DNA of 40,101 nt from Alphaproteobacteria bacterium. GTDB lineage: Bacteria; Pseudomonadota; Alphaproteobacteria; Acetobacterales; Acetobacteraceae. The position numbers were made by a program, and so were the translations under genes. Of the stretch, positions 8,213 to 39,516 are shown piece after piece (within the stretch, counting starts at the first letter, position 1; every line of letters begins with the position of its first letter). The stretch covers positions 1 through 40,101 of the forward strand of contig JAPLOH010000046.1 in assembly GCA_026400845.1 (NCBI GenBank), in the 5' to 3' direction. The notes under the pieces are model-generated. The model did not search any database. It saw nothing but the letters and a program-made list of their open reading frames with translations, and was not told the DNA's origin.

Positions 8213-8237
8213 GGCTGGTCTCCAGCGGGAGGAGGAA

Positions 8238-8365
8238 GGAAGCGCTTCTTTTTGAAAAAAGAAGCAAAAACTTTTCTATCCGTTGGCACCGCACTCTCCG
8301 CGGAGAGTACGGAGCCAAACGGATAAAAGTTTTTTGGTTCTTTTTTTCAAAAAAGAACCGCTTCC
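8238..8365. repeat. Dispersed palindromic element, copy B (long, two modules plus spacer)
   Basis: A 128-bp imperfect palindrome between rplY and pth. The outer arms begin GGAAGCG (8238) and end CGCTTCC (8365). Inside each is a hairpin of the type GGTTCTTTTTT/AAAAAAGAACC followed by AAAACTTTT or its complement. The centre carries ATCCGTT..GGC and its inverse around a perfect 16-bp palindrome, ACTCTCCGCGGAGAGT. On the minus strand it starts six bases after the rplY stop codon. The whole could form a long stem or cruciform and may attenuate transcription into pth and ychF. Confidence 0.9.
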
Positions 8366-9135: not shown

Positions 9136-10722
9136 CTACAGGATGTTCGCGGTGGTAAGTCCGGTGAAGCCCTGGAAGGTGATGTGGGTGCCGTCGCTGA
9201 GCGTCAGCACCTCGGAGCCGGCGACCGTCTGTGCGCCGGCCAGCGCGGCGGCGGCCTCGCCGGTGCCGAAGTTGATGAGTGTGAGGTAGTCCTTCCCCGC
9301 GGTGAACCCCTGCATCACCACATCGGGGTGCCGGCCCTGCACGAAGGCGGTGAGCGAAATGCCTGCCCCGCTTGCCACCGCCGCGGCACCCGTGCCGGTG
9401 ACGATGGAGGTGTTCCAGTCGCCGGCCTGGATGAACTCCGGCCCCGACCCGGCGAAGAACAGGTTGATCGCCGTGCTGCCGGCGCCGGAAATGGTCTCGG
9501 CCCCGGCGCCGCCGACCAAGGCATTCGTGGCACTCCCATTATAGGGTGCGCCGATTGGGTCGGAACTCGACAGCACATCGCCAGCCGCCACCCCGAACAC
9601 CGTCGCATTTCCCGTCACGTTGATGTGGCTGTTGCCGCCGGGTGCGGCGAGGAACAGGCCGGACGCCTGAACCACATCGAGGCTGCCACCGATGCCCAGC
9701 ACCGTATCCGCGTCGCCGCCCTGCAAGGTCGTCCGCCCCTGGGCGAACAGCAGCACGTTGCCGCCGCCGAGGAAGAGCGACATGGCCCCGGCCGGATTGC
9801 CGACGACGGTGGAACTTCCGGAGTAGGCGTTGTAGCCGGTGGCGCCGGTGCCGGCGAACATCAGCATTCCTGGCCCGTGCAGCTGCGCCAGCAGGGTGCC
9901 GCTACCGCCGACCACGGTGCCCGCGCCGTTATAGATGTCGCTGCCCGATCCGGCGAAATAGACCGAAGAACTGTAGGATGCGGTGGAGATCGTGTCCGAA
10001 CCACTGGAACTGGCGATCGTCACCGCCGCACCATCGTCGTTCGATGCGAAGCTGTTGTTGCCGGACCCGAACAGCACCACGTCGGTTCCGGAGTTGGGCG
10101 TGAAGCTCAAAGACCCGTACAAGTTGTAGCCACGGTTGAAGACGATGTTTCCGGGCCCGCCCGTGATGGTGTTGCTGCTGCCCGCATCAACAAAGACGGC
10201 ATTCGTGCCGATGCCCAGGGAGAGCACATGGTTGCCATCTGCGCCATAGATGGAGTTGTTGCCGCCGATGGCATTGATGGTGGCATTGCCACTGGCGAGT
10301 TGCATTGCGCCGCCGGCCACACCGGGCGCCAGGTTCAGCACCGCGTCGCCATTGCCGGCGATCAGGTTGAAGAAACCGGCCCCCGCCGTGAAGTTGATGC
10401 CGCCATCACCGACGACGATGACGTCACCGCTGATCGCGCCGCTGGTGACGGTGGTGACACCCGTGGCATTGCTGAACAGGACGGCGGGCACCGTGTCCGG
10501 CAGCGAAATGGCGATGGGCAGCGTGTCATACACCACCAACTGCTTCCCGGCGGGAACCGCGGGTATCGGCGAGCCATCCACCGTGAACAGCACGGCGGTG
10601 CCGTTCGTGATCTCCTGCCCGACGCTGTCGGCCAGCGTGCCCGCGTAGTAGGATGGGAGGAAATTGGCGAATGGAATGGAAAAAGTGCCGCCCGCCGCAC
10701 CCATCACCGTCAGCACCGCCAT
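9136..10722 (-). CDS. Large beta-repeat, secreted-type protein (528 residues)
   Basis: A low-complexity protein rich in Gly, Ala, Ser, Thr, Asn and Val with short irregular repeats of the kind GGxGxNxxxxG. Cys is absent and Lys is rare. I expect a beta-solenoid or RTX-like fold. The C-terminus, containing LTLSDGTHITFQGFTG and ending TTANIL, has the look of type I secretion signals, and no N-terminal signal peptide is present. Its full length aligns with the last 510 or so residues of the 11637-14570 product (shared stretches such as VTTVTSGA, LFLAAPGGN, AGSGPEFI, HPDV). The start at 10722 is chosen because GGGAG precedes it and the homology begins there. Classical GGxGxDxxx calcium nonapeptides are not clear, so RTX membership is inference. 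Function is unknown. Confidence 0.85.
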   Translation of the reverse strand: MAVLTVMGAAGGTFSIPFANFLPSYYAGTLADSVGQEITNGTAVLFTVDGSPIPAVPAGKQLVVYDTLPIAISLPDTVPAVLFSNATGVTTVTSGAISGDVIVVGDGGINFTAGAGFFNLIAGNGDAVLNLAPGVAGGAMQLASGNATINAIGGNNSIYGADGNHVLSLGIGTNAVFVDAGSSNTITGGPGNIVFNRGYNLYGSLSFTPNSGTDVVLFGSGNNSFASNDDGAAVTIASSSGSDTISTASYSSSVYFAGSGSDIYNGAGTVVGGSGTLLAQLHGPGMLMFAGTGATGYNAYSGSSTVVGNPAGAMSLFLGGGNVLLFAQGRTTLQGGDADTVLGIGGSLDVVQASGLFLAAPGGNSHINVTGNATVFGVAAGDVLSSSDPIGAPYNGSATNALVGGAGAETISGAGSTAINLFFAGSGPEFIQAGDWNTSIVTGTGAAAVASGAGISLTAFVQGRHPDVVMQGFTAGKDYLTLINFGTGEAAAALAGAQTVAGSEVLTLSDGTHITFQGFTGLTTANIL

Positions 10723-10725
10723 GTC

Positions 10726-10764
10726 CACACTCCCGTGTGTTGAGGTCCCGCGGCGATTGCCGCG
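10726..10764 (-). promoter_or_regulatory. Two hairpins in the leader of the 528-residue repeat protein
   Basis: CACAC-TCCC-GTGTG (10726-10739) on the plus strand means the Shine-Dalgarno GGGA of the minus-strand message lies in the loop of a 5-bp hairpin. A second perfect stem, CGCGGC-GATT-GCCGCG (10749-10764), lies directly upstream. Together they could modulate translation; functional meaning is inference. Confidence 0.4.
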
Positions 10765-10875
10765 AAGATCTTGTAATAACGAAACGCTAACGGTCGGCGA
10801 CTGAACCGTCAACGTCACGTTTTTGTGTCCAGCCGAAGGCCGATTGGCAATTGACCGCGCCTGAATGCGCAGCAA

Positions 10876-11636: not shown

Positions 11637-14570
11637 CTACAGGATGTTCGCCGCCGTCAGCCCGGTGAAGCCCTGGAGTGTGATGTGGGTGCCGTCGCTG
11701 AGGGTGATGGTTTCGTTGCTGAGTGTGGTTTGCGCGCCGGCCAGGGCGGCGGCGGCCTCGCCGGTGCCGTAGTTGATGAAGGTCAGGTAGTCCTTATTGG
11801 GGTCGAAGCCCTGGATCAGCACGTCGGGGTGGTTGCCGTTGACGAAGGCGATCAGCGCGATGCCCTGGCCGCCGACGATGGTCTCGGCGCCAGTGCCGGT
11901 GACGATGGAGGTGCTCCAGTCGCCGACCTCGATGAACTCCGGGCCGCTGCCGGCGAAGAAGACGTTGATGGCAGTGCTGCCGACGCCCGAGATGGTCTCC
12001 GCCCCGGCGCCGCCGGCCAGGATGTTGGTCGCGGAGCCGTAGACCGGGTTGTACTGAAGGTCTGCCGCCGAGAGTACATCGCCGGCGGCGACGCCGAACA
12101 CCGTGGAGTCGGTGCTGACGTTGATGTGGTTGTTGCCGCCGGGTGCGGCGAGGAACAGGCCTCGCGCGCCCGAGGCGGTAATTGTTCCGGAAATGCCGAG
12201 TACGGTTGCGCTTCCGATCGGCGCGCCGGCGTTAACGCGAGACGCCTCAACGGTCGTCGCCCCCTGGGCGAACACCAACGCGTCGCCGTAGGACTGCGTT
12301 ACCACCATGTTGCCGGCGGGATTGCCGACCACGGTAGACGTGCCGAAGCCCGCGGTCACGCTGGTCGCCCCGGTGCCGACGAATACCAGGCTGGGGCTGT
12401 AAGCCAGGAGCCTGCCGCTGTTGCCAACGACGGTACCCGCCCCAGCGAAACTGCCGGCTGCAGTCCCGGCGAAATAAATCACCGATCCGGTGCCGTAGTT
12501 TCTGACGTCGTCAATTCCCGTACCCCCGGCGACAGTCGCTGAGCCGGCGGTGGTGTAAGAATTGGATCCAGATCCCATCAGGATGAGATCGCTGCCGGTG
12601 CCATCATGATAGATATTCGCGCCGCCCGGCCCGCCCATCACCGTGTTGCTGCCGGATGTCTGGACGTAGTTGTAGCCGATGCCGAGTGTGATGACGTGGT
12701 TGCCATCGCCGATATTCACGTTGCTGTTGCCGCCGATGGCGTTGATGGTGGCGTCGCCATCGCCCATCTGGAAATAACCGCCGCCAACCCCCGGGGCGAG
12801 GTTGATCGTCTTCTGCCCGCGGCCGGCGAAGGCGTTGAAAATCCCGAGCCCGGCGGTGAAATTCAGCCCCCCATCGCCGACCACGATGAGGTCAGCGTTT
12901 GCCGCGCCACTGGTGACGGTGGTGACGCCGGCCGCCTTGCTGAACAGCGATGCGGGCACCGTGTCCGGCAGGATGACCGATTGGCCGATCGTGTCATACA
13001 AAACGAGGCTCTGGCCGGCCGGCACATTCGGCAGCGGTGCCCCGGTGACGAGTGCGCGCGTGGTGAGGTTCTGCGCGATCTGGCCGCTCACGATGCTCGC
13101 GAAATAGGACGCGACTCCGGTATCGAAGATGGAGGCGTAGGGAATTGCGAATACCCCGCCGGTGGCTCCGGTGACCGTCACGACCCCGCCGACCGGGTTG
13201 GCGTTGGTGGTCACCTTGGTGCCGCCATTGCCGTCGGCGGCAAGGCTGAAGGTGCCACCGGCGAAGGCGGAGAGCGGATCGAGCGTGAGCGCCACGCTGC
13301 CGCTCGCGGTGGGGATGGCCAATTGGCCGGATGCGTCGATGGAGGCGGTGGCGGAAGTGGCAACGACGTTCTGGAGGTCGATCGTCTGGCCGATGCTGAA
13401 GCCGGAAATGCGGTTGGTGGGCATCACGGACCCAGCAATCGCCAGCATGCCCGGCTGAGTGGAGAAGTACAGGATGCCGCTTCCCGCCGCGGCAGGGGTG
13501 CCGAGTTCGAGCGTGCCGCCGTCGATGGTGATGTCGGCGGTGATGGTGTTGGCCGCCTGCAGATCCACCGTTCCAGCGCCCTGAACCAGCAGCGGAAGGC
13601 CGCGGAAAAAGCCACCGATGGTGTTATCATCCGCCAGCGAGTCCGCGATCGTGATCCGCTTTCCTTGCGGCGGCGCCAGGGTGATGGCGCCCGTGCTATA
13701 ATAAGGGGTGCCGTAATAGATGCCGCTTCCCGCCGCCGCACCGCCGCCCGCGCCGTTGGCCCCGCTGCCGCCGGCCACACTGCCGCCGGAGATACTGGCC
13801 GAGATGATGCTGAGTTTGGCACCGTAGGCCAGGAAAATAGCGCCGCCAGCGCCCAGACCGCCGCCTCCGCCGCTGTTCGCAACGTTGTTTCCGACGCCTG
13901 CGCCCCCCCCTTGACCAGGATGGGAGGAGCCGTAGCCGCCGCCGCCGCCGCCGGAGCCGCCGTATGAGGTATACCGGCCGCCGCCCGAACTGCCGCCGCC
14001 GCCATATCCGGCCCCGTTGACACCGCTGGCGCCTCGATAGTCACCAAGATATCCGCCCGGCAGACCGCTGCCGCCGCCCCGGCCAACCCCACCGGTGAAT
14101 GGATCCTGAGCGCCGCCATTGCCGCCAAGCCCGCCGCCACCGCCGAGGATGCCGGCGCCGCCATTACCGCCGATGGCGCTGTTATTGGTGAAGGTCACGC
14201 CATCGAGCACGACGCTGGCCTGCGACATCACCATCAGGCCGCCGCCGAGCCCAGCTCCGCCGCCACCGCCCGGCCCGCCATCGCCGCCACGCGCCGTCAT
14301 GTTGGCGATGGTGAGGTCCTGCAAAACCACAGTGCCAGACGAGACGAAGATGCCGCGCACCATCCCGTCGCCGTTCAGGGTCTCGCCATTGCCGATGATG
14401 GTGACGGTACCGGTGGCTTGGATCGCCGGGGCGTTGGCGGTGAGGCTCAGGATGCCGGACGGCGCCGCGAGGGTGATCGTATAGGCCTGGTAGCTGAGAG
14501 AATTGGCGTCGATCGCAAAAATCGCAGCATCCCATTCGGACTCGTTCGTTACCGTGAAGTTGGTCGTCAT
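11637..14570 (-). CDS. Very large glycine-rich beta-repeat, secreted-type protein (977 residues)
   Basis: The N-terminal part (residues 1-95) resembles parallel beta-helix proteins (ITLAAPSGILSLTANAPAIQ, TVTIIGNGETLNG). Residues 95-290 are extremely Gly-rich (GGDGGPGGGGGAGLGGG and many GGSG/GGGG runs), interrupted by VLDGVTFTNNSAIGG, a motif of beta-helical autotransporter-like surface proteins. Residues from about 462 to the end are homologous over their full length to the 528-residue neighbour, ending DGTHITLQGFTGLTAANIL. No signal peptide is visible, so type I export by the C-terminus is the best guess. Start 14570 has GGAGG upstream on the minus strand. Probably an adhesin, matrix or surface protein; function is not established. 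Confidence 0.87.
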   Translation of the reverse strand: MTTNFTVTNESEWDAAIFAIDANSLSYQAYTITLAAPSGILSLTANAPAIQATGTVTIIGNGETLNGDGMVRGIFVSSGTVVLQDLTIANMTARGGDGGPGGGGGAGLGGGLMVMSQASVVLDGVTFTNNSAIGGNGGAGILGGGGGLGGNGGAQDPFTGGVGRGGGSGLPGGYLGDYRGASGVNGAGYGGGGSSGGGRYTSYGGSGGGGGGYGSSHPGQGGGAGVGNNVANSGGGGGLGAGGAIFLAYGAKLSIISASISGGSVAGGSGANGAGGGAAAGSGIYYGTPYYSTGAITLAPPQGKRITIADSLADDNTIGGFFRGLPLLVQGAGTVDLQAANTITADITIDGGTLELGTPAAAGSGILYFSTQPGMLAIAGSVMPTNRISGFSIGQTIDLQNVVATSATASIDASGQLAIPTASGSVALTLDPLSAFAGGTFSLAADGNGGTKVTTNANPVGGVVTVTGATGGVFAIPYASIFDTGVASYFASIVSGQIAQNLTTRALVTGAPLPNVPAGQSLVLYDTIGQSVILPDTVPASLFSKAAGVTTVTSGAANADLIVVGDGGLNFTAGLGIFNAFAGRGQKTINLAPGVGGGYFQMGDGDATINAIGGNSNVNIGDGNHVITLGIGYNYVQTSGSNTVMGGPGGANIYHDGTGSDLILMGSGSNSYTTAGSATVAGGTGIDDVRNYGTGSVIYFAGTAAGSFAGAGTVVGNSGRLLAYSPSLVFVGTGATSVTAGFGTSTVVGNPAGNMVVTQSYGDALVFAQGATTVEASRVNAGAPIGSATVLGISGTITASGARGLFLAAPGGNNHINVSTDSTVFGVAAGDVLSAADLQYNPVYGSATNILAGGAGAETISGVGSTAINVFFAGSGPEFIEVGDWSTSIVTGTGAETIVGGQGIALIAFVNGNHPDVLIQGFDPNKDYLTFINYGTGEAAAALAGAQTTLSNETITLSDGTHITLQGFTGLTAANIL

Positions 14571-22338: not shown

Positions 22339-22373
22339 CGGCGAGGCTCCTCCGGCAGCCGCTTGCCCTGCCA

Positions 22374-25973: not shown

Positions 25974-26102
25974 GGAAAGAAGGGCTTCTTTTTGGAAAAA
26001 GAAGCAAAAACTTTTTATCCGTTGGCTTTGCACTCTCCCGGGAGGGTTCGGTACCAATGGGCAAAAGTTTTTTGGTTCTTTTTTTCAAAAAAGAACCGCT
26101 TC
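25974..26102. repeat. Dispersed palindromic element, copy E (long, two modules plus spacer)
   Basis: A 129-bp copy between two solute-binding genes. The left module is GGGCTTCTTTTTGG/AAAAAGAAGC; the right module is GGTTCTTTTTTTCAAAAAAGAACC; the spacer contains ATCCGTTGGC and CTCTCCCGGGAG. On the minus strand its end GAAGCGG overlaps the stop codon TGA of the upstream gene (26101-26103), so the element forms part of that stop. Confidence 0.9.
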
Positions 26103-28876: not shown

Positions 28877-30240
28877 CTAGCTGGACATCGCCGGGCGGTG
28901 GCTGCGCCATTCGGTTGCCGTCTCATAGGCATGGGCGGCGCGCAGTACCGTGGCCTCCTGGAACGCCTTGCCGACCAGCTGGATCGACAGTGGCAGCCCG
29001 CCGGCGCCGAAGCCGGAACACACCGAAATCGCCGGCAGCCCGGTGAGGTTGAATGGCATGGTGAAGCCCGGCTTCTCCATGGTGCTCCATTTCGGGAACC
29101 CCTCGATCGGTCCGGCCTCGCTCGGCGCCGCGGTGGTGAGTAGCAGATCGACTTTTTCCATGGCAGCGGCGGTTTGCAGGCACAACTCGCGCCGACGCCG
29201 CAGCGCCTGGAAGTAGTCGGCCGCGCTCACCAGCCCGCCCAGCGCGAGCCGGTCGCGCAGCAATTCGCCGTAGTCGTTGTAGCGCGTCGTCATCCACGGC
29301 TCATGCACTGCATAGGCCTCGACGGTGAGAATGATGAACCCGGCGGCGCGGTACTCCTCAAGGCTCGGCAACACCACATCGCTGATCACCGCCCCCTCGG
29401 CGCGGAACAGCGCTATGGCGTCCTCGATCCCCTTTGCGACGGCGGGATTGGCCGGGTTGTCGGTCTCGTGGAAATTCCGCACCACGCCGATGCGCAGCCC
29501 TTTCGCACCCTTGTGCAGATCGGCGCTGAAATTCGCCACCGGGCGATCCCGGCCATCGCCTGCAGCAGCATGGCGCAATCTTGTGCCGTCCAGGCCATCG
29601 GGCCGGTATGGTCGAGCGTGAAGGACAACGGCAGCACGCCCGCCCGGCTGCACAGCCCATAGGTCGGCTTGATGCCGGCGATCCCGCAGAACGCCGCCGG
29701 CCCGCGGATCGATCCTCCGGTGTCGGACCCGGTGCCGCCGAGGAACAACCCCGCCGCCACCCCGGCGCCAGTGCCCGAGGAGGAGCCCGAAGGCATCCGC
29801 GAAACATCCCACGGGTTGCGGGCGGGCGGCCAGGGCAAGTCGAAACTCGGGCCGCCCATGGCGAATTCATGAGTGCTGAGCTTGCCCAGCATCACCGTGC
29901 CGGCCTCGGCCAGCAACGTGACGGTGCGGGCGTCGGTGTCCGGCACATGGTCCTTGAGCAGCTTGGAATGCGCCGTCGTCGGCAACCCCGCGGTGCAGTA
30001 GATGTCCTTGTGGGCGATCGGAATACCGTCAAGCGGCCCCCGCCCGCGGCCCTTCATGATCCGCGCCTCCGCCGCCCGTGCCTCGGTGAGTGCACGTTCC
30101 GGCGTATGCAGGATGAAGGCGTTGATCTTGGGGTCGAGCTGCGCCACCCGCCCGAGGCAGATCTGGGTCAGCTCCACCGGCGAGAGCTGCTTTGTCGCGA
30201 TCAGCGCCGAAGCCTCGGCGATGGTGAAATGCCGCTCCAT
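28877..30240 (-). pseudogene. Amidase-signature family amidase, frameshifted
   Basis: The 5' part (from ATG 30240) is a normal amidase-signature domain: Lys78 in GIPIAHKD, the Ser-rich SGSSSGTGAG (151-160) and nucleophile Ser177 in SDTGGSIRGP. The reading frame breaks at about 29540-29560. There the first frame reads LLQAMAGIARWRIS, whereas the second frame resumes as DRPVANFSADLHKGAKGLRI and continues with a normal C-terminus to 28877. The residues usually linking the two parts (about eight, of the kind HDPxDPxS) are missing, so a short deletion of 3n+1 bases is more likely than a single-base slip. A sequencing error or true inactivation are both possible. GGAGGG precedes the start. Confidence 0.88.
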
Positions 30241-30434
30241 CACGCGCCCTCCGGCGTGAAGACATGCGAAGGCTCGGCCGAACGCTCCCGCACCCCCGCC
30301 CGCACCATCTCGGTCAACTTCTCCATGATCGGCCAGGCATTGGCATGGATATCGGCAATCTGCGCCTCGCTGAGCGGCATGCCGGAACGGCGGACAAGCG
30401 CCTCGAAATCGGCGCGAGAGGTCTTTGGTTGCAT
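30240..30434 (-). CDS. GatC/AtzG-like small amidase partner
   Basis: A 64-residue helical protein whose stop shares TGATG with the amidase start. The sequence FEALVRRSGMPLSEAQIADI followed by HANAWPIMEKLTEMVR and an extended tail RSAEPSHVF resembles GatC and the AtzG-type small subunits that wrap around amidase-signature enzymes. By analogy it would stabilise the amidase next to it. AGGAG lies about ten bases upstream of ATG 30434. The similarity is by pattern and context; function is inference. Confidence 0.65.
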   Translation of the reverse strand: MQPKTSRADFEALVRRSGMPLSEAQIADIHANAWPIMEKLTEMVRAGVRERSAEPSHVFTPEGA

Positions 30435-30629
30435 CTGCGGGCACTCCTGCCAGACGGGGTGAACTTGGCGGCCCATGGTGGCGCGATTCGCGGCGGGGAA
30501 CCAGACGCAACCAGCCTCGCCGCCGACAAATCCAGAGACCCTGTTCCCCAATGCCCCGCACCACGCGTCGCCGCGCCGGCCGGGGCATGGCGGGCAAGGC
30601 CGCAAAGGACGAAATCCAGGGCGTATCGT

Positions 30630-32277: not shown

Positions 32278-33243
32278 TCATCTGGGGTTTGTTGCGCCCA
32301 AGCCGGTGATGCCGTGTTCGGCCATCGTCAGGATGAAGTCGCTATAGCGCCCGCGCCGCTCGCCGCCCCACGCCTCATACGCCAGCATCAGGGGGCGATG
32401 CCGCGCCTCCGACAGATTGAGGCTCGGCGGAAACAGCCAGACATCGGCCTCCCGTCGCAGTGGCATGAATTCCCAGCCGGCGCCCAGCGCCGTTGGCGCA
32501 ACCGGGCGGGCGAACAACAGCCGGTGCGCGTTGTCGTGGCGGATCGCCCGCAGATCGGCCGCACTCGGCCCGAGCCGCAGCACCCAGTCGAGCGTGGACC
32601 GATAGGTTTCATCGCGCCACAGCGCCACCGGCCACTCGCTGCCCCACACGATCCGCGACCAGCCGATCCGCTCGACCACGGCGCGCGCCCAGGCTTCGAG
32701 CGGCAAATGGCCAAGCGCCCCGTGGCGGGTGAACGCAACATGGAACCGCGGATGGCCAAACAGCCTGGCGACATCGGCATCGCTGTCGAGCAGACTGGGA
32801 TCGGCGGGGCCGGCAAAATGCCCAGCCAGCACGACCCGCTCCGGCCCCCCATCCAGAAAATCGGCGAGCACCCCAGCCGCGACCCGCAGCCCGGTCTCGC
32901 CGACCACCAGCGGGAAGGCGCCGCAAGCCGCCAGCAGGTCCAGCACATCCGGGTTCGCCGCGATGAACGCCGCTGGCAGACGCACCCCGGAAAACCCGCT
33001 GTCCAGTTGCGCGCTGATTCCAGCCCGCAATTTGGCCGGCGTCCGTCCGAGCGGCATGCCAACGGCACGGAAACGATCTGGATATGCGACAAGCGCGCGC
33101 GAAATCGTGTGCATGTCCGGGCACGTCTCAGCGGTGCTGAGCAGCGCTGCCGAAACGCCCTCCCGATCCATCAGGCGCAGCATATCCTCGATGGCGAGGA
33201 AACGCGGCAACGCGACATGTGCATAGGCGTCGATGATCGGCAT
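32278..33243 (-). CDS. Amidohydrolase_2 family TIM-barrel hydrolase with altered metal ligands
   Basis: A 321-residue protein of the family of lactonases and decarboxylase-type amidohydrolases. The N-terminal metal motif, normally DxHxH, reads DAYAH (residues 5-9), so the first His is Tyr7. The C-terminal metal Asp of WGSDWP is Glu203 in WGSEWPV. His142 in LAGHFAGP is present. A tail of about 80 residues (from GAGWEFMPLRREADVW) extends beyond the usual barrel end. Either the enzyme uses fewer or different ligands or it has lost activity. It follows the GntR gene with no gap (TAG-ATG) and may act on sugar lactones with the ABC module opposite. Confidence 0.82.
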   Translation of the reverse strand: MPIIDAYAHVALPRFLAIEDMLRLMDREGVSAALLSTAETCPDMHTISRALVAYPDRFRAVGMPLGRTPAKLRAGISAQLDSGFSGVRLPAAFIAANPDVLDLLAACGAFPLVVGETGLRVAAGVLADFLDGGPERVVLAGHFAGPADPSLLDSDADVARLFGHPRFHVAFTRHGALGHLPLEAWARAVVERIGWSRIVWGSEWPVALWRDETYRSTLDWVLRLGPSAADLRAIRHDNAHRLLFARPVAPTALGAGWEFMPLRREADVWLFPPSLNLSEARHRPLMLAYEAWGGERRGRYSDFILTMAEHGITGLGATNPR

Positions 33244-33708
33244 CTACGCTGGAACCTTTCTCGGCAACGCTTGTCTCGGCGCTATTTGGCGGATGGGCGC
33301 GATATCCGGATGCCATGTGTCCAGCAGCCGGTCGGCGGCGGCAGCGGCGGCCGGGTCACGTGCCCGGTCCGCCTCGCTATGGGCCGCCGGGTCGCCGATC
33401 GTCGCCCCCATCGCCGCGAAAGCCGCCGCGATCCGCCCGATCTGCGCCTCCGTCGCCGCCCGCGCCGTCTTCGGCCGGATCTCGACCATCCCCGTTGAGG
33501 CCAGCGTCTTCATCGCATCGCGAAATGTCGACCGGCTGACTTTGAAGTGCCGCACCAATTCGTCCTCGATCGGTAACCCATCGCCCGGCGCGAATTCGCC
33601 CCCCACGATCGCCCGACCGAGCTCATGCACCAGCATGCCGAACACTCCACGCCGCGGCGTGGAGCCATAGCGGCGTACAAACTCGTCGAAAGGCAAGGAG
33701 ACCAGCAC
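33244..33708 (-). CDS. GntR-family (FadR-type) regulator, shortened effector domain
   Basis: The N-terminal winged helix-turn-helix is complete: HELGRAIVGGEFAPGDGLPI, EDELVRHFKVSRSTFRDAMK, TLASTGMVEIRPKT. The C-terminal FCD ligand domain, normally about 150 residues, is reduced to about 80. RAATEAQIGRIAAAFAAMGA and GDPAAHSEAD match a piece of an FCD domain, but the segment before it (GTRV and RWNLLDPDVLAW in relatives) and the ligand-binding helices after it are missing. GTG 33708 is the only plausible start, as an in-frame stop lies at 33718-33720. It may bind DNA without normal effector response. Confidence 0.78.
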   Translation of the reverse strand: MLVSLPFDEFVRRYGSTPRRGVFGMLVHELGRAIVGGEFAPGDGLPIEDELVRHFKVSRSTFRDAMKTLASTGMVEIRPKTARAATEAQIGRIAAAFAAMGATIGDPAAHSEADRARDPAAAAAADRLLDTWHPDIAPIRQIAPRQALPRKVPA

Positions 33709-33777: not shown

Positions 33778-33858
33778 TGATTGACAGGGCAACCCACCCC
33801 GACGAATGATCCGCGCCAACAGGCGCACCCAGCGCCGCAGCCCCGGAGGGATCGGACC

Positions 33859-35154
33859 ATGCACCACGGCACCACCACACGCCGCACGCTGCTCGCCAGC
33901 GCCGTTGCCGCACTGCCACTGACGGCGCACGCCGCCGTTCCCCCGCCGCCCCAGCCCCTTGCTTTGCGCGTCGCCACCAACTACGCCGGCGTCCACCCGA
34001 TGGCGAAAGTCGTCCGCGCCGTCCTCGCCGAATTCACCGCCGACTACCCCACCATCAGCGTCGCCGTCGAAGAAACCCCGGGCAACGACCACCAGACCAA
34101 GATCAAGCTCGACGCCAGCAGCGACCGCATGCCCGACGTCTTTAACTACTGGCGGCTCGACCCCGGCTTCGGCCTCGACCAGGTTGCCCGCGCCGGCAAA
34201 CTGGCCGACCTCACCGACTGGACGAAGTCCGACCCCGCCTTCCAGGCCCTGTTCGACGACTATTCGTGGCGCACCGCCAGCCTCGACGGTAAGGTCTACG
34301 GTGTCCCCGTCGTCATGTTCTACGTCCAGTTCCTCGCCAACCGCGCCGTCTTCGACCGCGCCGGCGTGCCCCTGCCGACCGATTGGCCGAGCCTGCTCGC
34401 CGCCGTCCGCGCGCTGAAAGCCAAGGGCGAACTTCCCTGGGCCATCTCCATCGGCAACGACAGCCAGGGTGGCCGCATCTACAACTACGTCGTCAACCGC
34501 ATGGTCGGAAACCCGCGCGCTTTGCGCATGCATTCCGGCCTCGAACCCATCAACGTCCCGGAAATGGTCACCGCCGCCACCATGCTGCACGACCTCGTGG
34601 TCGGCTTCACCCCCGCCGACGCCATCTCCATCAACAACGACGCCGTCTACGCCAAATACGTCAACGCCGGCCGCGGTGCCCTCGTGATCGACGGCTCCTG
34701 GATCACCCCAAACCTCCGCAAGGAGGTGCAGGACACCATGGAGGTCCTCTCCTTCCCCCTGCTCCCCGGCGGCGCCCAGACCGAAACCAACGTCGAGCGC
34801 GATCTCACATCGCTCTGGTACGCCGGCGCCAAGCCGATGCGCGACGACGCCCGCCGCCCATACATCCAGGAACTCATCCGCCGCCTGTCCTCCCGCGCCG
34901 CCGAAAAGCGCTACGCCGAGGAAGCCCAGCAGCCGATTCCCGCCCTCGGCGTCGATCTCGACCCCACCAAGATCGTCCGCATCGCCCGTACCGCCCAGGC
35001 GCTGGCGCTCTCCATGCCCGCCAATAAATGGATCCCCTCGGTGATGAAGCCCGCCCAGCGCTCGAAGTTCGAGCCCCTGCTGGGAGAATTCCTCGCCGGC
35101 GACCACCCCCCCGCCGCCTTCGTCGCCCGCCTCGCCACCATCTTCGGAGCCTGA
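33859..35154 (+). CDS. Family 1 extracellular solute-binding protein (sugar-type ABC)
   Basis: A 431-residue periplasmic protein. The twin-Arg signal MHHGTTTRRTLLASAVAALP suggests Tat export, with cleavage after AHA. Family motifs include LRVATNYAGVHPMAKVVRAV, MPDVFNYWRLDPGFGLDQVA, DGKVYGVPVVMFYVQFLANR and ALVIDGSWITPNLRKEV. GGAGGG eight bases before ATG 33859 fixes the start. Substrate is probably a sugar or sugar derivative. Codon choice strongly favours C-ending codons (CTC, GTC, CCC) compared with genes elsewhere in the window. Confidence 0.9.
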   Translation: MHHGTTTRRTLLASAVAALPLTAHAAVPPPPQPLALRVATNYAGVHPMAKVVRAVLAEFTADYPTISVAVEETPGNDHQTKIKLDASSDRMPDVFNYWRLDPGFGLDQVARAGKLADLTDWTKSDPAFQALFDDYSWRTASLDGKVYGVPVVMFYVQFLANRAVFDRAGVPLPTDWPSLLAAVRALKAKGELPWAISIGNDSQGGRIYNYVVNRMVGNPRALRMHSGLEPINVPEMVTAATMLHDLVVGFTPADAISINNDAVYAKYVNAGRGALVIDGSWITPNLRKEVQDTMEVLSFPLLPGGAQTETNVERDLTSLWYAGAKPMRDDARRPYIQELIRRLSSRAAEKRYAEEAQQPIPALGVDLDPTKIVRIARTAQALALSMPANKWIPSVMKPAQRSKFEPLLGEFLAGDHPPAAFVARLATIFGA

Positions 35155-35163
35155 TGCGCCCCC

Positions 35164-36801
35164 ATGGGCACGCTGCGCTTCCGCCCGTCTGTCCTGCTGT
35201 TCATGCTGCCGGCCGCCGCCCTCTACGGCCTGTTCTTCCTCGTCCCCTTCATCCGCACGGTTTGGGCGAGTCTCTACGACTGGAACGGCATGGACGACGC
35301 GGTCTTCGTCGGCCTCAAAAACTACGCCGATCTCGCGTCCGACACCCTGTTCCGCACCGGCTTCGCCCGCGTCGGTCTCTGGGCCGCCGCCGCCGTCGCG
35401 CTGAAGGTCGGCACCGCCCTCCTGCTCGCCAGCGCCCTGCGTGACCGCATCCCCGGCGGCCGCTTCTTCGAGGCCGCCTTTTTCGTCCCCGTCGTCATCT
35501 CGTCGGCTGCCATCAGCCTCCTCTTCACCCTGCTCTACGACCCCGACATCGGCCTGGTGAACGTCGCCCTGAAACTGGTCGGCCTCGGCCATCTCGCCCG
35601 CGCCTGGCTCGCCGAGCGCGACACCGCCCTCTACGCCGTCATTGCCGTGCCGATCTGGCACACCATCGGCTACTTCTTCGTCATCCTCCTTGCCGCCATG
35701 CGCGACATCCCCCGCGAATTATTCGAGGCTGCTCGCATCGACGGTGCTGGTGCGCGGATGACATTCATCCACATCACCGTCCCCTCGCTCTGGCCGGTCC
35801 TCTCCGTCTGCGCCATCCTCGCCGTCACCGCGGCCCTGAAAAGCTTCGACTACGTCTTCGTGATGACCCGCGGCGGCCCCGGCACCGCCACCGAAGTGCC
35901 GGTCACCACCATGTACAAAACCATCTTCGTCAACCTGCAAATCGGCTATGGCACCGCCATGGCAACAACGATCTTCCTCGTCGCCCTCACGGCCCGCCTG
36001 CTGATCTACACCGTGCTGACCACCCACGCCGCCCTCACGCTGTTCCCGTTCCTCTGGGTGCTCAGCAATTCACTGCGCGACAGCGATGCGATCCTGACCA
36101 GCATCACCCTCTGGCCCGAGCACGCCAGCCTCGCCAACTTCACCCACCTCCTCGCCACCACCAACATCCCCCGCGCCTTCTGGAACTCGGTCAGTATCAC
36201 CGCCGCCAGCCTCGCCCTCCTGCTCGCCGCCGCCGTCCCGCTGGCCTTCGCCATTGCCCGCTTCCGCTTCAGACTCGCTGAATACATCTACATCTTCTTC
36301 GCTCTCGCCGTCCTCGTTCCGGCCGTCTCCGTCCTCCCGATGACCTTCCGTTTATTTAATGACCTCGACCTCCTCGGCACCAAATACGGCATCGCCCTGA
36401 TCTACGCGACCGAACAACTGCCGATCTCCGTCTTCCTCCTCGTCACGTTCATGCGCGCCATCCCCCACGAACTCGACGAAGCCGCCCTCATCGACGGCTG
36501 CGGCCTGTGGAACCTCTTCCTCCGCGTCGTCCTGCCGCTCAGCCGCAACGGCATCGTCACCGTGCTGATCCTCGCCTTCGTCGCTATCTGGAACGACTAC
36601 CTCACCGCCCTCATCCTGCTGCCCGACCAACGCAACCGCACACTCTCGGTGGCCCTCGCCTTCGCCAAGGACGAATACCGAGTCGATTACGGCATGATGT
36701 CAGCCGCCATCGTCTTTGCCGTCGCCCCGATGCTGCTGCTCTATCTCGTGCTCAAGGAACGTATCGCCACCGGCATGGCCGCGGGCGCTGTCAAAGGCTG
36801 A
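35164..36801 (+). CDS. Fused MalF/UgpA-MalG/UgpE-type ABC permease
   Basis: One 545-residue ORF holds both permeases of a sugar-type importer. The first half (1-276) is MalF/UgpA-like and has the ATPase-docking motif ELFEAARIDGAGARMTFIHI (185-204). The second half (about 278-545) is MalG/UgpE-like with LFPFLWVLSNSLRDSDAI and its own docking motif ELDEAALIDGCGLWNLFLRV. The cytoplasmic C-terminus of the first and N-terminus of the second are absent. The junction ATTIFLVALTARLLIYTVLT is continuously hydrophobic, so an in-frame deletion is the likely origin. No ATPase gene follows. Start 35164 is in frame with MalF homology; ATG 35154 is out of frame. Confidence 0.88.
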   Translation: MGTLRFRPSVLLFMLPAAALYGLFFLVPFIRTVWASLYDWNGMDDAVFVGLKNYADLASDTLFRTGFARVGLWAAAAVALKVGTALLLASALRDRIPGGRFFEAAFFVPVVISSAAISLLFTLLYDPDIGLVNVALKLVGLGHLARAWLAERDTALYAVIAVPIWHTIGYFFVILLAAMRDIPRELFEAARIDGAGARMTFIHITVPSLWPVLSVCAILAVTAALKSFDYVFVMTRGGPGTATEVPVTTMYKTIFVNLQIGYGTAMATTIFLVALTARLLIYTVLTTHAALTLFPFLWVLSNSLRDSDAILTSITLWPEHASLANFTHLLATTNIPRAFWNSVSITAASLALLLAAAVPLAFAIARFRFRLAEYIYIFFALAVLVPAVSVLPMTFRLFNDLDLLGTKYGIALIYATEQLPISVFLLVTFMRAIPHELDEAALIDGCGLWNLFLRVVLPLSRNGIVTVLILAFVAIWNDYLTALILLPDQRNRTLSVALAFAKDEYRVDYGMMSAAIVFAVAPMLLLYLVLKERIATGMAAGAVKG

Positions 36802-36818: not shown

Positions 36819-37673
36819 ATGTTCACCACATTCCCCCGCACCGGGGCCACCGTCACCCGCCTCGGCTATGGCGGCGCAGCCATCGGCCTCACCAACTATC
36901 TCGGCCCCTATGACGCCCACGCCCACCGCGCCACCGCCATCGCCGCCGTTCGCCGCGCCGCCGACGCCGGCATGACCTATTTCGACACCGCGCCCGGCTA
37001 CGGCGCCGGCCTGTCCGAGGAAATCTTCGGCGAAGCCCTCGAAGGCCGCACCGGCCTCACCATCGCCACCAAGGTCAAGGCCGAACCCGGCATCGACGTC
37101 CGCGCCTCCCTCGAAGCCAGCCTCACCCGCCTCCGCCGCCCCCGTATCGACCTGCTGCAGATCCACGGCACCAGCATCGACCGCCCCACCTGCGCCGCCA
37201 TCCTCGCAAAAGGCGGCATGCTCGACCAACTCGCCCGCCTGCGCGACGAAGGCCTCGTCGCCGCCATCGGCTTCACCTCCGAAGACAACAACCCGTCCAT
37301 CTACGACCTCATCGCCTCCGGCGGCTTCGACACCATGCAGATCGCCTACAACCTCCTCCTCCAACACCCCTACGAACCCACCCGCCCCTTCGGCAGCCTC
37401 TTCGCCGCCAAGGAAAAAGGGATGTTCACCATCGCCATGCGCACGATCACATCGAGCATTTTTCAGCGCTGGATCAAGCTCGCCAACCCCGCAGATACCT
37501 TCGACTACACCCCCGCACTCATCCAGTTCGTCCTCTCCAACAAATTCATCGACGTCGCCCTCGTCGGCATGCGCACCCACACCGACGTCACCTCCGGCAT
37601 GGCCGCCTGGCGAGACACCCGCTCCCGCATTGACATCGACGCGCTCTGGGGCCGCTATACAAACGTGCCTTAG
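36819..37673 (+). CDS. Aldo/keto reductase family protein
   Basis: A 284-residue NAD(P)H-dependent oxidoreductase with a TIM barrel. The catalytic tetrad is complete: Asp56 and Tyr61 in FDTAPGYG, Lys85 in IATKVK, His116 in LLQIHG. Near the C-terminus the family's FVLSN and VALVGMRT motifs are seen. Start 36819 has AAGG eight bases upstream. It is last in the module GntR/amidohydrolase/ABC/aldo-keto reductase, a combination known from sugar oxidation pathways where a sugar dehydrogenase and a lactonase act in series; this role is inferred. It ends eight bases before the IS630 fragment. Confidence 0.88.
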   Translation: MFTTFPRTGATVTRLGYGGAAIGLTNYLGPYDAHAHRATAIAAVRRAADAGMTYFDTAPGYGAGLSEEIFGEALEGRTGLTIATKVKAEPGIDVRASLEASLTRLRRPRIDLLQIHGTSIDRPTCAAILAKGGMLDQLARLRDEGLVAAIGFTSEDNNPSIYDLIASGGFDTMQIAYNLLLQHPYEPTRPFGSLFAAKEKGMFTIAMRTITSSIFQRWIKLANPADTFDYTPALIQFVLSNKFIDVALVGMRTHTDVTSGMAAWRDTRSRIDIDALWGRYTNVP

Positions 37674-37681
37674 TCAGGCGA

Positions 37682-37978
37682 ACCGGTATGGGTGCCCACG
37701 CCGTCCTGATTTGCGACGGCGCAGGCTGGCAGCAGCCCGGCGGCGGCCTCACGGCGCCAGATAACATGAGCCTGCTGCCACTGCCGTCCTATGCGCCGGA
37801 GTTGAACCCGATGGAAAACGTCTGGGAATACCTGCGGGCTGACAAGCTGTGCTCCCTGGTTTGGGACAGCGACGGCGAAATCGTCGCCGCCTGCAAAGCC
37901 GCGTGGGATTTCCTCATCAAAGGCCCGGATCGAATCCGATCAGTCGGTCAACGGGACTGGGCGTGTGTCAAAGCCTAG
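37682..37978 (+). pseudogene. IS630-family transposase, C-terminal fragment
   Basis: About 96 residues of the DDE domain: GAHAVLICDGAGWQQPGG contains the second catalytic Asp, LPSYAPELNPMENVWEYLRA contains the catalytic Glu, and IRSVGQRDWACVKA is the usual terminus. The N-terminal half with the helix-turn-helix and first Asp is absent. It abuts the aldo/keto reductase stop, so the deletion or insertion breakpoint is next to that gene. Confidence 0.9.
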
Positions 37979-39152: not shown

Positions 39153-39516
39153 GGTGTAGGAGGCCACTGACCGCCCTGCCGGAGCGACCGCCACGAGCCT
39201 GGTGTAGGCAGGGCAGTCATCCGGCGCGGGTCTCCCAGTCACGGTCGCGGTAGCCCGTGCGCTGGTTGCGCCGGCTCTCGCTACGCTCGCCCTGGCCGGC
39301 CCCGCACAGTTCGCCCATCTCAAGTTGCATCAGCCGCTCGGCGGCAAAGCGGATCATCTCGCGCAGGAATGTTACGTCGGAGCCTTTCTCCAGAAGTGCG
39401 CGAAGGGTGATCTTGTCACTGGTCATCGTGGTGGTCCTCGGGTGAGAGGTGCGTCTCGCGACCCAACCCTACCCACAGCCATCGCTCCGGCAGGCCAGTC
39501 AACGGCCTCCTACACC
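39153..39516. mobile_element. Miniature IS256-family element with 35-bp terminal inverted repeats
   Basis: The left end GGTGTAGGAGGCC (39153 onward) extends through CCTGCCGGAGCGA to 39187. It is matched in inverse by TCGCTCCGGCAGG to GGCCTCCTACACC at 39482-39516, with few mismatches. Between them only the first 69 codons of a Mutator/IS256-type transposase remain. Total length is 364 bp against roughly 1.3 kb for a full element. An extra partial end-like GGTGTAGGCAGGG stands at 39201-39213, at the inner deletion border. No target duplication is evident in the flanks. Confidence 0.8.
39217..39426 (-). pseudogene. IS256-family transposase, N-terminal fragment
   Basis: 69 residues: ITLRALLEKGSDVTFLREMI, RFAAERLMQLEMGELCGAGQ and QRTGYRDRDWETRAG are the N-terminal domain of IS256/Mutator transposases. 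The next family residues (TVELRIPKLR) are replaced by a stop codon and end-repeat sequence. The catalytic DDE domain is gone. It lies within the miniature element. Confidence 0.88.

Follow-up and report, generated by a model that had tools for sequence, protein, structure and literature searches.

MalF-like and MalG-like permease halves in a single open reading frame, probably joined by a 47-bp deletion, in a genome of the Acetobacteraceae

Permeases of the CUT1 type, such as the MalF-MalG, SugA-SugB and UgpA-UgpE pairs, are normally built from two subunits encoded by two genes. In the window (the whole 40,101-nucleotide stretch of DNA analysed here), homologues of both subunits instead share one chain of 545 amino acids, which raises the question of whether this chain is a working single-chain permease or the product of a recent accident. 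The fused gene and its parts are as follows.

35164-36801, + strand: fused permease open reading frame, a single stop-free frame of 545 codons encoding 545 amino acids
35164-35994, + strand: MalF/UgpA-like (N) half, residues 1-277, 86-87% identical to the proteins of relatives G002 and G004 over residues 1-275
35725-35751, + strand: EAA motif of the N half in the translation, EAARIDGAG, residues 188-196, presumed docking motif
35992-36000, + strand: fusion joint A277-R278-L279, where 47 bp are absent relative to G002 and G004; breakpoint approximate
35998-36801, + strand: MalG/UgpE-like (C) half, residues 279-545 plus stop, 89-90% identical to the G002 and G004 proteins
36478-36498, + strand: EAA motif of the C half in the translation, EAALIDG, residues 439-445, presumed docking motif

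The initial annotation described this gene as two sugar-importer permeases in one polypeptide, with both docking motifs in the same frame and a nearly uninterrupted hydrophobic stretch at about residues 262-300. This description agrees with our analysis. A profile search matches Pfam BPD_transp_1 to the open reading frame twice, residues 11-276 match the NCBIfam UgpA/GlcT/MalF models and residues 280-545 match the GlcU/MalG/UgpE models (all below their equivalog cut-offs), and the nearest PDB sequences are SugB, SugA, MalG and MalF. Both EAA-type motifs are present, which we take to be docking motifs. The wording of the hydrophobic stretch is fair, because R278 is the sole charged residue and H288 the only histidine between residues 264 and 304.

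The two halves are separate genes in different frames in all five relatives that carry both, namely G002 and G004 of the same genus and G008, G130 and G018 of the same family, whose orthologues are 74-90% identical by half. The orthologous span comprises 1638 bases in the window versus 1685 in both G002 and G004, a difference of exactly 47 bp. The missing bases correspond to 13 codons of the N half (39 bases), the 5-base TGATG in which stop and start codons overlap, and one codon of the C half (3 bases); relative to the G002 and G004 proteins, the N half lacks its last 13 residues and the C half its first two. The stop/start overlap of the split genes is TGATG in G002 and G004, and ATGA in G008. 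Because the parental genes overlap in different frames, it is the loss of 47 bp that places the halves in one frame. The event had originally been called an in-frame deletion; comparison with the relatives upholds fusion by deletion, but 47 is not a multiple of three, and the deletion joins two frames. On the basis of these alignments, the fusion and a deletion as its probable cause are well supported. Overlapping subunit genes are described in PMC10666635 as common and translationally coupled, and a one-step fusion by a small deletion would therefore be easy.

The initial annotation also proposed looking for the same fusion in relatives, and none was found to carry it. A sixth relative, G329, has only the N half, which adjoins a contig end, and the best other match in the window's own genome is 39% identical. 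Across 71 loci, with duplicates and distant paralogues included, the only fused copy is that of the window. Within the genus, two of the other four genomes yield no permease match at E 1e-60. No further fusion was detected among 397 genomes of the family, seven of which have a match at this threshold (the window's own included), nor among the matches listed from 398 genomes of the phylum; at most three candidates were scored per genome, so that rare fusions could escape both surveys. Full-length matches with one internal stop in G021, G764 and G516 look like adjacent pairs in the same frame rather than fusions. Likewise, among the matches listed from the open-licence literature (titles, abstract openings and phrases), no report of a MalF-MalG fusion was found. 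The absence of the fusion from relatives favours a recent event.

The claim that the cytoplasmic linker has been lost is confirmed by comparison with natural single-chain permeases. Twelve of these were found with the PhnU2 model, eight scoring over its cut-off and four below. In the fusion, four residues with one charge, LTAR, separate A274 of helix 6 from L279, where helix 7 begins, whereas the same linker spans 34-37 residues with 6-10 charges in all twelve natural proteins. A G002 pair joined on paper would have 19 linker residues by count. The fusion has lost the basic tail with which the split N half ends (RRVTRFGRI in G002).

An AlphaFold2 model of the fusion, built from a 23-row alignment, has a mean pLDDT of 71.7 and a pTM of 0.69, and predicts a helix 6 of 18 residues (262-279) and a helix 7 of 16 residues (288-303), with pLDDT below 50 at residues 277-290. 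As a control, the orthologous pair at locus L051 (61-62% identical) was modelled after reading through its single stop with the natural spacer kept. This model (pLDDT 75.3, pTM 0.77) has corresponding helices of 33 (269-301) and 29 (317-345) residues, and its junction at 296-319 also falls below 50, so the fusion does not stand apart from the control in its low confidence at the joint. FbpB (9j4r_A) is the first-ranked Foldseek match of the fusion model (Z 26.2, rmsd 3.8 over 454 residues), and the control resembles the same structure (Z 25.8, rmsd 3.5 over 469 residues). These matches suggest that the overall 12-helix fold is compatible with the fusion, and in the models the hairpin between helices 6 and 7 is its weak point. 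Such models reflect the alignment on which they are built, and membrane strain lies outside what they measure. The initial annotation had left open whether the fusion works in an unusual way or is a recent loss of function; the relatives favour a recent event, and the predicted structure, with its fold kept and helices 6 and 7 shortened, decides neither.

The relationship to known systems is twofold. With CUT1 permeases, the fusion shares sequence homology of both halves, an EAA motif in each, and an adjacent gene for a solute-binding protein (33781-35154). From the neighbouring genes only, we infer a sugar as the substrate. No ATPase motif is present near the permease cluster; elsewhere, the genome has six OB_MalK matches, which make MalK-type ATPases available as candidate partners. 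With the FbpB/PhnU2 single-chain permeases (9j4r_A, TIGR03262), the modelled fusion shares the two-half, 12-helix fold in one chain. However, it belongs to another subfamily, scoring 61.8 bits against TIGR03262 PhnU2 where the cut-off is 593.25, its four-residue linker contrasts with the much longer one of the twelve natural proteins, and it arose separately, by deletion. Single-chain permeases are already known, and the fusion adds to them a sugar-branch variant with a minimal linker; 8 of 58 genomes of the class encode a natural one that exceeds the PhnU2 cut-off. The 12-helix FutB is described as a duplication in PMC3654945. Fused frames created by deletion are the subject of PMC12803068, although there distant gene fragments are joined, whereas here the fused genes are adjacent, overlapping subunit genes.

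The neighbouring genes bear on whether the system is still in use.

32278-33243, - strand: Amidohydro_2 hydrolase, assigned by Pfam and orthologues, perhaps a sugar lactonase
33244-33708, - strand: divergent GntR regulator of 154 amino acids, without C-terminal blocks of 46 and 56 columns
33781-35154, + strand: extracellular solute-binding protein (SBP_bac_1), with orthologues in five relatives; the start is perhaps the ATG at 33856
36819-37673, + strand: aldo-keto reductase (Aldo_ket_red), 80-82% identical in G002 and G004

The reductase and the hydrolase, together with a dehydratase of the relatives, suggest what we presume to be an oxidative sugar pathway, for example for fucose or arabinose. 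This enolase-type dehydratase gene lies beside the hydrolase gene in G002, G004 and G008 and is absent from the window; it is also absent from the searched stretch of G018, and the contig of G130 does not extend far enough to show whether it is present there. The GntR protein has 154 residues versus 255 in G002 and G004, with about 100 residues lost in frame. Measured from stop to stop, its frame spans 157 amino acids in the window versus 258-360 in all five relatives, and it is thus shortened in one of six genomes. A regulator without most of its C-terminal domain and a missing dehydratase suggest a system on its way out. Just beyond the reductase gene, a transposase fragment presumably of the IS630-like type occupies 37688-37978 (+ strand), and contig C262 of this genome carries a copy of 95% identity.

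Selection was assessed with a codon model of four genomes whose tree separates the window and G008 from G002 and G004; of three topologies, this one was the best for all five genes tried. The window branch has an omega of 0.012 versus 0.037 on the other branches for the N half, and 0.016 versus 0.027 for the C half. The corresponding values are 0.038 versus 0.021 for the binding protein, 0.028 versus 0.017 for the reductase, 0.078 versus 0.047 for the hydrolase and 0.101 versus 0.052 for the kept part of GntR. The largest likelihood gain (2dlnL 4.19) is that of the N half, and it points toward stronger, not weaker, constraint. Strong purifying selection on both halves implies either a recent event or a protein that still functions. 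Because synonymous sites are saturated, omega opposes long neutral drift and gives no date for the deletion.

We favour, at a probability of roughly 55%, a real, recent and lineage-specific fusion that arose by accident, left the permease with impaired or doubtful activity, and belongs to an operon that has partly decayed. The lack of a relative with the fusion, the missing loop and the damaged regulator together make a recent accident probable, and we infer that the event was recent and activity reduced. Under this explanation, the permease genes of a CUT1-type importer would have lost 47 bp, comprising the end of the MalF-like one, the TGATG overlap and a single codon of the MalG-like one. 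Translation would then run straight through the joint to yield a 545-residue chain of 12 helices, with its two halves arranged in the model as in FbpB and other natural single-chain permeases. Around R278, a turn of no more than a few residues would connect helices 6 and 7 in place of the usual basic cytoplasmic loop. The resulting permease may be impaired or idle, and may not have had time to accumulate stop codons or an excess of amino-acid changes. Against decay, there is no stop in 545 codons, omega is low on both halves, the genes for the binding protein and the reductase are both open frames, the losses from GntR and the permease fusion all left frames open, and the fusion model is as similar to FbpB as the control model is.

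These same observations bring in a different explanation, possible though doubtful, in which selection keeps a working single-chain permease. Its halves would pair as in FbpB, a tight hairpin at R278 would replace the loop, and each EAA loop would dock one ATPase subunit. The open frame with its conserved motifs, the low omega of both halves, the FbpB-like model, the natural single-chain permeases of the class and the six MalK-type matches all speak for it, but the fusion occurs in one genome only among the matches listed, its linker is far shorter than any of the twelve natural ones, helices 6 and 7 are shortened, and the regulator is damaged. That a sugar permease pair has just become a functional, almost loop-free single-chain permease, a fused transporter caught at birth, is a reading that we consider unlikely.

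If such a loop-less permease did function, the helix 6-7 linker, present in each of the twelve natural fused proteins compared here, would be dispensable. FbpB and other single-chain permeases must have had simpler precursors; as sister genomes here still show the split state and the change is precisely defined, the amount of linker that a single-chain importer needs becomes directly testable. If instead the protein is dead, the locus would be an ordinary example of a decaying operon, and would warn against taking an intact frame as proof of function.

An assembly or consensus error, by which the organism would retain the 47 bp and two separate genes, appears improbable. The genome is a draft of 369 contigs, its nearest relatives are metagenome assemblies, and several deletions fall in one part of one contig, all of which would suit an error; however, by eye the joint carries no repeat that could make an assembler skip 47 bp, the frames are joined exactly, and long stretches of the window align with relatives without such gaps. 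For this comparison, the genes of the window were aligned with the orthologous stretches of G001-G004 and searched for gaps of at least 12 bp. An amidase gene at about 28877-30500 (- strand), some 2 kb upstream and perhaps unrelated to the permease operon, carries a 28-bp frame-breaking deletion at 29548 relative to G001, G002, G003 and G004; subject to that reservation, it counts with the shortened regulator and the missing dehydratase among the signs of decay. The other gaps mostly lie between genes or close to their ends, at the 130-bp repeats or within a diverged repetitive gene, or are seen against only one or two relatives; examples are 18 and 12 bp in the amidase gene versus G003, 14 bp at 22360 versus G001, and 12-16 bp in the region where the binding-protein gene begins versus G004 and G002.

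It is very improbable that an internal GTG at 36013 still gives rise to a separate C half, so that two subunits persist, since, despite a GTG at this position in all aligned rows, inspection by eye reveals neither a ribosome-binding purine stretch upstream nor a stop codon to permit re-initiation, and a protein started there would be missing the initial residues of its first helix.

Several repetitive elements were observed elsewhere in the window. A repeat of about 130 bp at 8233-8365 and 25974-26102 has dozens of copies, about 82-95% identical, across the genome and the genus. Another repeat at 39221-39485 has copies of 87-92% identity in the same genome, G001 and G004, some of them at contig starts. 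Two large glycine-rich repetitive proteins are encoded at 9136-10875 and 11637-14570 (- strand), and their C-terminal parts are alike by eye.
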